Shown here one piece after another: positions 4-12,453 of a stretch of DNA of 21,479 nucleotides. The notes under the pieces were generated by a model. That model ran no database searches, was not told where the DNA came from, and worked only from the letters and a program-made list of their open reading frames with translations. The position numbers were made by a program, and so were the translations under genes. Location of the stretch: IMG/VR virus record IMGVR_UViG_3300046519_000129, positions 1-21,479 of that record; one strand, written 5' to 3'. How positions within the stretch are numbered: the stretch's first letter is position 1; each line of letters opens with the position of its first letter. Source of the DNA: a virus.

Positions 4-606
4 ATGAAGAACAAGCGCACCATCGCCAGCCTGCAGGATGCCGTTGATACCGAACTGGCCCGGGCGAAGATCGACGCCAGCCAGACGGCCGACGCAATTC
101 GCCTGAACCTAGAAAGCCTGCGAACCCTGGCTGCCGACCATGCCTTCCTGTTCGTCGATGCCCAGCAGTTGGTCATGAAAGCCAACGACGACCTGGTCGC
201 GCTGATCAAGGTTCGGATTTCTGAGCACCAGAAAGCCGAAGATCAGAAGGCCGAAGCCCAGCGCGAGCAGATCCGCAAGGAAGAGCTGCAAAGGATCGAG
301 GATGAAGCCAAGGCGAAGCAGGTGGTCGAGCCTGTCGCTGAGCCTGCGCCAGTTGTGACGCCGGCGCCGATCAAGTCCGCACCGGCAGCACAGACGGCAC
401 CCAAGTCGGTGACCGCGACAGCGCACCAGGCGGTGAACCTTCAGGCCGAAGTATTCGACCTGCTGGATCTGGTCAAAGCCGTGGCCTATGGGCAGGCGCC
501 TATCTCCGTGCTGACCGTCAACTGGGAAGCGCTCGATGCGATGGTCGCCGATCAGGGTCAAGCCTTCAGCATGGCCGGCGTGAGGCTGGTCAAGGCGGCC
601 GCATGA
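4..606 (+). CDS. Phage hypothetical protein with charged coiled-coil centre
   Basis: This encodes 200 residues if translation starts at the ATG at position 4. The frame stays open to the window edge, so the true start may lie upstream and this could be only the C-terminal part of a longer protein. Residues about 1-75 are helical. Residues about 75-105 are a highly charged Lys/Glu/Gln/Arg stretch typical of a coiled coil. A Pro/Ala/Val-rich linker covers about 106-140, and a small C-terminal domain follows. The pattern resembles accessory proteins found in phage early operons near recombination genes, but I cannot assign a function. The stop overlaps the next start (ATGA at 603-606), so the two genes are probably translationally coupled. 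Gene reality is high confidence; function is unknown. Confidence 0.8.
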   Translation: MKNKRTIASLQDAVDTELARAKIDASQTADAIRLNLESLRTLAADHAFLFVDAQQLVMKANDDLVALIKVRISEHQKAEDQKAEAQREQIRKEELQRIEDEAKAKQVVEPVAEPAPVVTPAPIKSAPAAQTAPKSVTATAHQAVNLQAEVFDLLDLVKAVAYGQAPISVLTVNWEALDAMVADQGQAFSMAGVRLVKAAA

Positions 607-8553: not shown

Positions 8554-8801
8554 TCAGTACACCAAAAACTAATCCTCGCTTAAAGTCCTCTAAATTCAAG
8601 CCCTACAGGTCATACCGTGGAAATCTTCAAAGATTCCACGGTAGCCTCCCATCGAAAACCTCCCCGCTTCACAATCTCCCACAAAGCCAAGATATACAAA
8701 GACTCGCGAGTATCAGCGAGTACCACGCAATACCTTCCCAATGCAAAGCAGTTAGTACATCATCCAGTACATCGAAAAAATGACCATCGAGAGGATGTAC
8801 T
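8541..8801. repeat. Five AGTACATC-like sites around the alpA-int gap
   Basis: ATCAGTACA occurs at 8541-8549 and 8553-8561, 12 bp apart. AGTACATC occurs at 8754-8761 and 8766-8773, again 12 bp apart. GATGTACT, the inverted copy, lies at 8794-8801 and overlaps the int Shine-Dalgarno region. Paired direct repeats on both sides of a gap next to xis and int genes are typical of arm-type integrase or Xis sites. AlpA or Int is the likely ligand; this is inference. Confidence 0.6.
8613..8643. repeat. 10-bp inverted repeat in the alpA-int gap
   Basis: The arms TACCGTGGAA (8613-8622) and TTCCACGGTA (8634-8643) are perfect inverted copies separated by 11 nt. The inner part (TCTT and AAGA) extends the symmetry with a one-base slip. 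It could be a recombination core site, an operator or an RNA hairpin. Confidence 0.5.
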
Positions 8802-8802
8802 A

Positions 8803-9978
8803 GTGGCACTCACGGACACAGCGGCCAAGCAGGCGAAGCCCAAGGAAAAGGCCTATACCCTCTCCGACTCTTTGGGACTGTCACTCTATGTGGCGGCAAG
8901 CGGTGTAAAGAGCTGGCACTTTCGATTCACCTGGCTCAGCAAACAGGTTCGGATTTCATTCGGGACTTACCCTGAAACGGGCCTGAAGGAAGCGCGCGCG
9001 CGCAGAGACGAGGCGCGAGAGGACGTTGCAAGCGGAGTGGATCCGCGCAATTCGAGGCGGGAGAAGAAGGCCGAGATGATCGAGGCCGGGGGCCGCACCT
9101 TTCGCCGTGTATATGACGAATGGCTGGCATTCAGGAAGGGAAGTATTTCGCCGGGCACTTACCGGGTGATCAGCAACGCCATGGAGCTGGATGTGCTGCC
9201 AGCCTTTGGCGAGCGACAGATTGACGCCATCAAGCGGGCCGACGTCATCGGCTTGATCCGGCGCGTGGAGAAGCGCGGATCGGTCGCCACAGCCGTCAAG
9301 GTGCGCCAACGCATGAGCCAGGTTTTCAGCTATGCAATTGCCACCGGACTGATTGAGGCGAACCCAACAGCCGAGATGCATGCCGTTACCGAGAAGATGG
9401 GCCAGCACAAGCCTCACCCGTTCCTGCCCTTCAGCGAGATGCCGACCACCATGGCGGCAATCAGGGACTGCGCCTCCGGCCATCAATTGAAGACGGCGCT
9501 GCTGCTGATGATCTACACCGCTTCGCGCCCTGGCGAAGTGCGCCACGCTGAATGGTCGGAAATCGACCTCGATACCGCGACCTGGACAACGCCAGCGGCG
9601 AAGATGAAGATGCGGCGAGATCACTCCGTCCCTTTATCGACCCAAGCCGTCGACCTGCTGAAAAGCATGCTGCCTATCACCGGCGGCCAGCGCTACGTGT
9701 TCGCGAATCGAAATGTCTCGACCGCGCCAATCGGAACCAATTACGCGAACAACGTCATGGACTCCTGCGGACTCACCGGCAAGCAATCGCCTCACGGCTT
9801 CAGACACTTGTTCTCCACCGAGATGAACGGTCGTGGATACAACCGCGACTGGATCGAGCGCCAACTGGCTCACGCCGACAGCAGCGTCATCCGTGACGTG
9901 TACAACCACGCAGCGTACATCGAGCAGCGCCGGGAAATGATGCAGGAGTGGGCCGACCTCGTTAGCCCCAACCCCTAG
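8803..9978 (+). CDS. int: P4-type tyrosine integrase
   Basis: This 391-residue site-specific recombinase integrates and excises the element. The GTG at 8803 was chosen because it gives the usual family start (M-A-L-T-D-T-A, then K-P-K-E-K) and has GAGAGG 7 nt upstream. The frame continues back to 8617, but that extension is unlike the family. The N-terminal arm-binding domain spans about residues 1-90, and the core-binding SAM-like domain about 100-185. Catalytic residues are R242 (S-R-P-G-E-V-R), H331 and R334 (H-G-F-R-H), H357 (L-A-H-A-D) and nucleophile Y372 (A-Y-I-E-Q-R-R). All are present, so it should be active. It ends the plus-strand operon, and a possible operator overlaps its start. 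Confidence 0.95.
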   Translation: MALTDTAAKQAKPKEKAYTLSDSLGLSLYVAASGVKSWHFRFTWLSKQVRISFGTYPETGLKEARARRDEAREDVASGVDPRNSRREKKAEMIEAGGRTFRRVYDEWLAFRKGSISPGTYRVISNAMELDVLPAFGERQIDAIKRADVIGLIRRVEKRGSVATAVKVRQRMSQVFSYAIATGLIEANPTAEMHAVTEKMGQHKPHPFLPFSEMPTTMAAIRDCASGHQLKTALLLMIYTASRPGEVRHAEWSEIDLDTATWTTPAAKMKMRRDHSVPLSTQAVDLLKSMLPITGGQRYVFANRNVSTAPIGTNYANNVMDSCGLTGKQSPHGFRHLFSTEMNGRGYNRDWIERQLAHADSSVIRDVYNHAAYIEQRREMMQEWADLVSPNP

Positions 9979-10208: not shown

Positions 10209-10418
10209 ATGCCAAACTCAGACCTACTCCCTTCCCTGCTATTCAAGATCAATGAAAACCAGCTCGCCCTGGAGGCCGCCATCATGGAGCTTTCAAACTG
10301 GGTTGAGCAACGCGGCGGGGCCGACGTCGCCGACAACGTGCGAGGCGCCCTGGACACCATCGATAAAAATGAAGAGTTCATCAAGCTGACGCTCGCGGTA
10401 CTGATGACGCCGGAGTGA
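10209..10418 (+). CDS. Small helical hypothetical protein (69 aa)
   Basis: The ATG at 10209 has GAGGA 6 nt upstream. The 69-residue protein is helical, with a hydrophobic start (L-L-P-S-L-L-F-K-I) and heptad-like Leu/Ile/Ala spacing. It contains L-S-N-W-V-E-Q-R-G and ends L-A-V-L-M-T-P-E. It looks like a small conserved protein of Pseudomonas prophages, but I do not know a function. The SD lies in the right arm of a weak CCTC/GAGG stem (10187-10201). Confidence 0.6.
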   Translation: MPNSDLLPSLLFKINENQLALEAAIMELSNWVEQRGGADVADNVRGALDTIDKNEEFIKLTLAVLMTPE

Positions 10419-10467
10419 TCCATTTTGCATTCCGTCGCCAGCATTCGCCATCGCGCCCCGCCTCGTT

Positions 10468-10487
10468 TACTGTATATCCAAACAGTA
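10468..10487 (+). promoter_or_regulatory. LexA (SOS) box
   Basis: The sequence reads TACTG-TATATCCAAA-CAGTA. Both outer pentamers match the 20-bp LexA consensus TACTG-N10-CAGTA exactly. It ends 16 nt before the GTG start of the coiled-coil gene, where bound LexA would block initiation. Derepression would follow DNA damage and RecA activation. Confidence 0.8.
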
Positions 10488-10503
10488 TCAGCAAGGCGCG
10501 ACC

Positions 10504-10824
10504 GTGGACCCCTACGAAATCGAAGACACCGGCGAATGGCTCGGCAGCCCAACCAGACTGGAAACCGTCAAACATTACGCAAGCATGCTCGAGGAGGACG
10601 TCCAAGATCTGAAGCGGCAGCTGCAAGCTGCGAAGGAAAAAATTTCCACCCTTGTCGAAATGAACGACCAGCTGTCAGCTGAACTCCAAAAGAAGCGGGT
10701 ATGGATGGCGAACCTGGAGGCGGAGACAACCGACCAGCTTTCCCAGATCCAAAGCCTGACGCTGGTCCTGGATCAAAAAGAAAGGATCATTCGCGAGTTG
10801 CAGGCGGCCAATCAGAGGGGCTGA
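10504..10824 (+). CDS. SOS-controlled coiled-coil protein (106 aa)
   Basis: The GTG at 10504 follows AAGG about 8 nt upstream and lies 16 nt after the LexA box. The 106-residue protein is almost entirely helical. Residues about 20-104 carry heptad spacing with many Leu, Glu, Lys and Gln, predicting a long coiled coil. No enzymatic motif was seen. The next gene, an SRAP protein, starts 2 nt after the stop, so the two form one SOS-regulated transcript. A partner or scaffold role for SRAP is possible, but this is inference only. Confidence 0.68.
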   Translation: MDPYEIEDTGEWLGSPTRLETVKHYASMLEEDVQDLKRQLQAAKEKISTLVEMNDQLSAELQKKRVWMANLEAETTDQLSQIQSLTLVLDQKERIIRELQAANQRG

Positions 10825-10826
10825 AC

Positions 10827-11522
10827 ATGTGCGGACGACTTTCCCAATACGACGGCATTCACGACTTCGTGGCGGCACTCAGCATGACCAACCCTCTGGT
10901 CAATAGCACCGGGGACCGGCCATTCGAGCGGTACAACGCCGCCCCGACAACCCAGCTCGCCATCTTTCACCAGGAAGGACAATACCTGCACGCCGACATG
11001 GTGCGCTGGGGATGGCGCCCGCATTGGGCCAAGGACCGCGCAGCACCGATCAATGCCAGGGTAGAGAAAGTCGCCCGCGGCCCATTCTTTCGCGCGATCT
11101 GGCCGCACCGGGCCATCATCGCTATCAACAACTGGTTTGAATGGGTGGATGAAGGCGGCCCGAAGAAGCAGCCGTATCTCATCCGCCGGCGCGACCGGTT
11201 GCCAATCCTCTGCGCTGCGATCGGCCAATATCCAAACGCCGAGCATGAGTCCAGCGAGCACGACGGCTTTGTGATCATCACCGCCGACAGCGCTGGTGGC
11301 ATGGTGGACATCCACGACCGCCGGCCAGTGACGCTATCTCCTGAACTGGCCCGAGAATGGCTCGACCCAGCCACGCCAAAGGAGCGCGCCGAACAGATGG
11401 TGATGCACCAGGGCGAGCCAGTTGAGGCGTTCGAGTGGTTCAAGGTGGACCGCGCGATTGGCAACGTGCGAAATCAAGGGCCTGACTTGATCCTACCGAA
11501 CAATGATGCGGGTGAGATATAA
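10827..11522 (+). CDS. SRAP (YedK/HMCES-type) protein
   Basis: This 231-residue protein belongs to the SOS response-associated peptidase family, which forms a DNA-protein crosslink with abasic sites in single-stranded DNA through an N-terminal cysteine. The start at 10827 was chosen because it places C2 directly after the removable Met (M-C-G-R). Other family residues are N37 (Y-N-A-A-P), the I-N-A-R segment (75-78), E105 (N-W-F-E-W) and H163 (I-H-D-R-R-P). The length fits YedK (about 220). It follows the coiled-coil gene by 2 nt under the LexA box. A likely role is protecting abasic sites in phage or host DNA during induction. Confidence 0.92.
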   Translation: MCGRLSQYDGIHDFVAALSMTNPLVNSTGDRPFERYNAAPTTQLAIFHQEGQYLHADMVRWGWRPHWAKDRAAPINARVEKVARGPFFRAIWPHRAIIAINNWFEWVDEGGPKKQPYLIRRRDRLPILCAAIGQYPNAEHESSEHDGFVIITADSAGGMVDIHDRRPVTLSPELAREWLDPATPKERAEQMVMHQGEPVEAFEWFKVDRAIGNVRNQGPDLILPNNDAGEI

Positions 11523-11580: not shown

Positions 11581-12453
11581 ATGAAGCACCTCCCTTGGAA
11601 GCCGTTAGCGCTTCTACTATTAGCTTGCCTCGCCTCATTCTTGATCTATTTGAATACAAGCAACGACCACAGCACTAAGATAATAGCGGACATCACTCTT
11701 AGCCTGGCAACATCTTTTATCTCGGTTATATTCACCGTACTAATACTAGATAGATACCTAGAATCACAAAGAATCGCCGAGAAACTAAACTTAAATCATG
11801 CATGCCTCAGAACGATGAGGCCTTCAATTGAACACATTGCTTATATTTTCTACAGCATAAACAAGGCAACCGCGCTGAAAAAAGGTGAGGCTGGTAAGCA
11901 ATCTATATCAACTATGCTGAAATCACTTGACAATGATCAAGTGCGATGCCTGAACTGTCAGTTGAGCTGCCCCCACGGCTTCCCAAGCATCAGCTGGGAG
12001 GACTATTTGATAGAACGTTTCAGAAAATTCACAGACGCTTTAAACAGATTACTGGAGAGGTACTCAGTAAATCTAGATGCAGATACAATCGAGCTTTGTG
12101 AGCAAATCGCTAATCATTTCTTTCCTCGATCGCTAAGCTTTGTTAACGATACAAGAGCGGCAAACAAAGAACTACTAGGCCTTGACTTCTCGAATATAAC
12201 AACTCTTCAGCTCGCAACGACTCACAGCTCAACTCCTACTGTTTTTGAAGACTATATTGATAAACTAAGCAAATTAACGACTCTGGTAGCCGCTGCGTAC
12301 AACGCGAAGGATCTATACATCGACTTGCAGTGGGAAGACCGCGTAATACCGTTACTCGGATCATGCCGATTGCCTGACAGCGATATCCCCGTGGATCCAT
12401 TCAGGGGGAAGGATAATGTCCGGCCAGATATGGATGAAGTGAATCGCTTTTAG
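11581..12453 (+). CDS. AT-rich two-TM membrane protein, probable moron
   Basis: The 290-residue protein starts at an ATG with GAAGAGG 8 nt upstream; the ATG at 11577 is out of frame. Two N-terminal hydrophobic segments (about 7-24 and 34-56) predict membrane anchors, followed by a long soluble domain. A C-x2-C-x3-C-x-H cluster at residues 123-132 could bind a metal. The rest is helical and rich in Leu, Asn and Asp. Base composition is clearly AT-richer than the flanks, and the gene lies on the plus strand against the late genes. These are signs of a horizontally acquired lysogenic-conversion gene. I do not recognise the family. Exclusion of other phages or modification of the host envelope are possible roles only. 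Confidence 0.72.
   Translation: MKHLPWKPLALLLLACLASFLIYLNTSNDHSTKIIADITLSLATSFISVIFTVLILDRYLESQRIAEKLNLNHACLRTMRPSIEHIAYIFYSINKATALKKGEAGKQSISTMLKSLDNDQVRCLNCQLSCPHGFPSISWEDYLIERFRKFTDALNRLLERYSVNLDADTIELCEQIANHFFPRSLSFVNDTRAANKELLGLDFSNITTLQLATTHSSTPTVFEDYIDKLSKLTTLVAAAYNAKDLYIDLQWEDRVIPLLGSCRLPDSDIPVDPFRGKDNVRPDMDEVNRF

Follow-up and report, generated by a model that had tools for sequence, protein, structure and literature searches.

The window, i.e., the whole 21,479-base virus record that was analysed, belongs to a Pseudomonas-type temperate phage. An integrase (8617-9978), an AlpA-like gene and a C5 methyltransferase follow one another in the gene order, and endolysin, tail and terminase genes lie on the opposite strand. 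At the locus described here (Table 1), a predicted LexA box is separated by 16 nt from the GTG start of a coiled-coil gene, whose TGA stop lies 2 nt before the ATG of a gene encoding an SRAP protein. The coordinates and spacings of the box and of both open reading frames are exactly those given in the preliminary description of this DNA. The ribosome-binding-like site of the SRAP gene falls inside the end of the coiled-coil gene, an arrangement that suggests coupled translation of the two. No terminator-like site was found between the SRAP gene and the downstream 290-aa gene, which is thus possibly the third gene of the transcript; its product has no relative in the phage collection searched. 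No sigma-70 hexamers were recognisable in the operon promoter, which counts against the reading proposed below. The phrog_12397 gene upstream is a frequent neighbour of the operon in relatives.

Table 1. Features of the predicted LexA-controlled operon and its surroundings (window coordinates)
Feature	Position	Strand	Basis or remark
Small conserved phage gene, 69 codons, phrog_12397	10209..10418	+	phrog_12397, 3.6e-38; stops ahead of promoter
Element TTCCGTCGCC (relatives: [CT]TCGTCG[CG]C)	10430..10439	+	9-mer recurring upstream of box in relatives
GCCTCG(A/T)T block abutting LexA box	10460..10467	+	Conserved; information content at most 1.9 bits per position
Predicted LexA (SOS) box TACTGTATATCCAAACAGTA	10468..10487	.	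Matrix score, conservation, host controls
Ribosome-binding-like AAGG, coiled-coil gene	10493..10496	+	Sequence
Coiled-coil gene, GTG start, 106 aa	10504..10824	+	Family undescribed; IEDTxDWLGxPTxLE conserved near N terminus, plus a single long helix
Ribosome-binding-like AGAGGGG for SRAP	10814..10820	+	Sequence; within 3' end of coiled-coil gene
SRAP gene (YedK/HMCES type), ATG start, 231 aa	10827..11522	+	PF02586, 157 bits; YedK structures, 177 bits; C2, N76, E105, H163 intact
Putative membrane protein, 290 aa	11581..12453	+	Possible third gene of transcript

For scoring, a matrix was derived from 14 host SOS boxes, drawn from the genomes of P. fluorescens FW300-N2E3 and P. protegens FD6. Under this matrix TACTGTATATCCAAACAGTA scores 26.1 bits, within the range of the host boxes themselves (16-33.7), and the best site in 100 Markov-simulated windows averages 5.2 bits, with a maximum of 14.7. 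The operon thus carries, 16 nt before its first start codon, a promoter box that scores like those of known LexA regulon members. As a positive control, the pattern ACTGTAYNNNNNNACAG was matched in the two host genomes at lexA, umuD-like, yebG and radical-SAM repair genes, the gene names being assigned from translations; in FW300-N2E3 and FD6 it also matches three prophage coiled-coil genes.

The box is held at a near-fixed position across relatives. When up to five differences from the ideal were allowed, it was found in 151 of the 155 distinct coiled-coil loci having sufficient upstream sequence, 41-52 nt ahead of a conserved Trp codon, and only 1.4% of random 130-nt windows hold such a box. 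The commonest start codon in these loci is GTG and the commonest box spacing is 16 nt. The information content per position, taken over 77 representatives sharing less than 80% protein identity, is 1.58 bits in the box and 0.55 and 0.44 bits in its flanks, values that are conditional on alignment at the box. The window contains a further exact TACTG-N10-CAGTA at 12050-12069, which might be taken to mean that the operon box is a chance match as well. With a score of just 2.9 bits and a position within a gene, that second copy is itself a chance occurrence and was rejected as a real LexA box; the matrix score, conservation and positional constancy of the operon box all oppose the same explanation there, which we regard as extremely improbable. 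A real and conserved LexA box in front of the operon is well supported by these sequence comparisons, and the direct SOS control of the phage SRAP operon put forward in the preliminary description gains strong support from the box conservation and the host positive controls.

Further elements were observed upstream of the box. The 9-mer [CT]TCGTCG[CG]C is held by 85 of 151 relatives (background 0.8%), nearly always at -37 to -39 of the box, with one relative at -33 and with the reverse complement in some cases; the window copy has one mismatch. More broadly, a fixed upstream element consisting of TCGTCGCC at about -38, CTCGC at about -24 and GCCTCGAT at -8 of the box is common to coiled-coil loci and to loci with an unrelated 241-aa leader, and is partly present in F116-type phages; its first part is reverse-complemented in some loci. 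A host-wide regulatory role for TCGTCGCC was considered and rejected, as its matches in six host genomes are near the control level.

The second gene of the operon encodes a complete SRAP domain. Its product matches PF02586 with 157.2 bits (cut-off 27.1) over model positions 1-214 of 214, and YedK structures with 177 bits. Of the active-site residues named in the preliminary description, C2, E105 and H163 (YedK H160) stand, and the alignment with YedK moves the catalytic Asn from N37, which is another invariant Asn, to N76 (YedK N75). All four catalytic residues are intact in the window protein and are kept in 111 of 111 phage and prophage SRAP rows. YedK is known to form covalent crosslinks with single-stranded DNA at positions that have lost their base, and its His160 and Glu105 matter for crosslinking (PMC9436759).

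SRAP genes of other prophages occur in different surroundings. Some follow a 241-aa leader gene that has a LexA box and whose product carries CxxC..CxxC at its end, others come directly after a box at a distance of 57-61 nt, and the P. aeruginosa phages F116, Presto and Fyn8 combine a box with a further leader; prophage SRAP genes are thus LexA-boxed via at least three independent arrangements. In a tree of 111 SRAPs, whose bootstrap is not fully settled, the coiled-coil label changes at least seven times on well-supported branches. Among 29 canonical SRAPs sampled separately from other Pseudomonas genomes, 24 have a box of at least 15 bits, mostly 57-66 nt upstream. Judged from these gene arrangements, SRAP is tied to a LexA box independently of its leader and appears to be an exchangeable cargo of the operon.

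The phage enzyme differs from the SRAP that the host already has. SRAP was present in all 99 Pseudomonas genomes searched. In the 20 genomes examined for both properties (L314-L333), the core protein is about 206 aa long, none of the core genes has a LexA box (best sites from -12.8 to +4.3 bits), and in all 20 proteins His replaces the catalytic Asn and the catalytic His is absent. Since the host core copy lacks both the box and two active-site residues, the phage would add a damage-inducible SRAP with a complete active site. One could instead suppose that the main task of the phage SRAP is counter-defence, in which it would protect the abasic sites that Brig1-like defence glycosylases create in the phage genome; defences acting via abasic sites are indeed known (PMC11078745). 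However, the target of Brig1 is modified T-even DNA, a LexA box couples expression to damage rather than to infection, and LexA-boxed SRAPs also occur in Pseudomonas genomes, some of them presumably outside phages. We therefore consider a primary role in counter-defence unlikely.

Relatives of the coiled-coil protein were gathered from viral contigs, phages and 75 genome loci. All 75 genome loci are from Pseudomonas, and no plasmid relatives were found. The protein had been called unrecognised, which was borne out: no family of Pfam or NCBIfam exceeded its cut-off, PHROGs and PADLOC gave no convincing match, and known coiled-coil families (YabA, the crescentin rod and others) all scored far below their curated cut-offs. 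The AlphaFold model (mean pLDDT 90.5) consists of a single helix spanning residues 18 to 105, preceded by a short N-terminal hook that bears the conserved IEDTxDWLGxPTxLE; a structural search of BFVD with this model returned no match. Such a protein probably self-associates, presumably as a dimer. An effect at the DNA level was rejected as the source of its conservation, as the synonymous sites of the N-terminal part diverge freely (pS 0.41-0.51). In one locus (L174:6001-6756), the coiled-coil gene forms an in-frame fusion with the C-terminal portion of a protein resembling that of window 4-606, apparently as a result of recombination.

The preliminary description had proposed that the coiled-coil protein could be a new SRAP accessory protein and looked to its occurrence beside SRAP in other genomes. 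A dedicated accessory, e.g., a recruiter of SRAP to single-stranded DNA, would fit the 2-nt coupling in the window and the intact SRAP found in 47 of about 127 coiled-coil loci. When the loci retrieved by the coiled-coil query are counted together with the window, these 47 are accompanied by 11 with a remnant, broken or divergent copy downstream, 69 with no SRAP within 3.5 kb and three that are too short. Several SRAP remnants stand beside an intact coiled-coil gene (L030, L031 and L032). Within the window's own clade, the omega of the coiled-coil gene is 0.19 with SRAP (21 genes) versus 0.17 without (22 genes); because it is equally low in SRAP-less loci, the gene is maintained without SRAP. 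Most relatives keep their own LexA box even where SRAP is missing. Conversely, SRAP is found behind other leaders or none. The coiled-coil gene thus shows neither consistent co-occurrence with SRAP nor dependence on it, and the accessory proposal did not hold up: SRAP-less loci keep both the box and purifying selection, and SRAP freely exchanges leaders. We rate a dedicated accessory role as quite improbable. The coiled-coil protein appears instead, on comparative grounds, to be an SOS-induced effector in its own right and not a dedicated SRAP partner.

The slot behind the coiled-coil gene also receives other cargo, including acyltransferases, a fatty-acid-hydroxylase-like protein and a hexapeptide-transferase-like protein. 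In three loci (L061, L062 and L063), the coiled-coil gene is followed by a short MCGG-containing protein with only trace similarity to SRAP, which is possibly a divergent SRAP.

The region upstream of the coiled-coil gene is often host DNA in the genome loci, and in several of them a tRNA-Ser or tRNA-Leu gene lies 0.2-0.6 kb upstream. The host DNA and the nearby tRNA genes indicate that the operon lies next to the attachment site, where the prophage ends. A small protein under a LexA box and away from the immunity region recalls the antirepressor units of Gifsy (PMC3121763), and the coiled-coil protein might be a LexA-controlled antirepressor, as are Tum of 186 and GfoA/GftA of Gifsy, acting on the repressor of its own or of other prophages. 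The gene does share with the Tum/GfoA type its small size, its box and its position outside the immunity region. The prophages do not share the non-self-cleaving repressor of that type: an S24 repressor-like protein, of the self-cleaving kind, accompanies the coiled-coil gene in 19 of the 20 long prophage records that carry it, and an antirepressor would thus be unneeded for self-induction. In addition, no DinI or antirepressor family match was found for the coiled-coil protein. An antirepressor function is, in our estimation, not probable. Since a role against its own prophage's repressor is unlikely, the protein is classed here as an SOS-induced effector; it may still act on other prophages. 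In several of the same prophages (L247, L248, L250-L253 and L256), a small gene of the DUF1654 family (PF07867) is preceded by a second LexA box, which lies 0.4-2 kb from the S24 repressor gene; the DUF1654 product may likewise be a phage protein under SOS control.

Taken together, the locus is best read as an operon, repressed by LexA and situated at the end of a temperate Pseudomonas phage, that encodes an undescribed SOS effector family together with an exchangeable SRAP cargo providing YedK-type shielding, a reading to which we assign a probability of roughly 0.78. The sequence, the box, its conservation, the exchange of leaders and the selection on the coiled-coil gene were observed directly. 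From these we infer LexA binding, induction and an action of the coiled-coil protein, with the SRAP chemistry taken from YedK. In a lysogen free of DNA damage, host LexA would occupy the box, which lies in the promoter region, and silence the operon. Upon DNA damage, RecA filaments would trigger the cleavage of LexA, as well as of the S24-type repressor encoded by the prophage, and expression of the operon would coincide with the onset of phage replication. The first gene would yield a small helical, probably self-associating coiled-coil SOS effector. SRAP would shield abasic sites in single-stranded DNA by attaching to them covalently through its Cys2. As an enzyme that is damage-inducible and complete in its active site, it would supplement the host core copy.

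More tentatively, and with somewhat less than even odds, the coiled-coil family may constitute a new class of SOS-induced phage effector. In such a protein, a constant N-terminal hook would be joined to a variable helix, and the target would be either host machinery (replisome, RecA/LexA, cell division) or co-resident prophages. In many Pseudomonas phages the gene would head a slot at the prophage end, driven by the SOS response, whose cargo is exchangeable. The analysis now defines a gene family of Pseudomonas prophages that had no annotation, carries a LexA box and is under purifying selection; induction by mitomycin C is predicted for it. Pseudomonas phages also seem to have placed SRAPs with a full active site under the control of the host damage response on repeated occasions, in hosts whose core copy is incomplete and has no box.

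A literature search, which covered few subscription journals, found no description of the operon or of the coiled-coil family, and the PseuP_222 paper contains no SOS data on the SRAP operon of PseuP_222. The new elements are the LexA box with its conservation, the leader exchange, the difference between the phage SRAP and that of the host core, and the coiled-coil family itself. The second protein is like SRAP/YedK/HMCES (PF02586) in domain, length and the residues C2, N76 (N75), E105 and H163 (H160), and differs in being phage-borne and second in a predicted LexA-boxed operon. The operon resembles the Gifsy antirepressor units, Tum and AntC (PMC3121763) in being a LexA-boxed prophage unit that encodes a small protein and lies away from the immunity region; unlike them, it belongs to prophages with S24-type repressors and carries SRAP cargo, and no sequence relation was found. 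The Acinetobacter prophage SRAP A1S_2014 is reported to be induced by DNA damage (PMC3978071, PMC7273328) and is likewise prophage-borne, but it adjoins umuC and is under UmuDAb/DdrR, in a genus without LexA. SRAP has been linked to the SOS response before and is also found in temperate phages (Aravind et al. 2013, PMC3765255). The SOS-linked operons of that study share the tie of SRAP to the SOS response, which had come mainly from gene neighbourhood; their neighbours are umuDC, imuAB-dnaE2 and dinB, whereas the partner in the window is an undescribed coiled-coil gene and a direct LexA box is now placed on SRAP itself. Phage F116 (NC_006552) shares with the window the order of LexA box, leader gene and SRAP near the integrase, and departs from it in the leader, a 171-aa protein outside the coiled-coil family.
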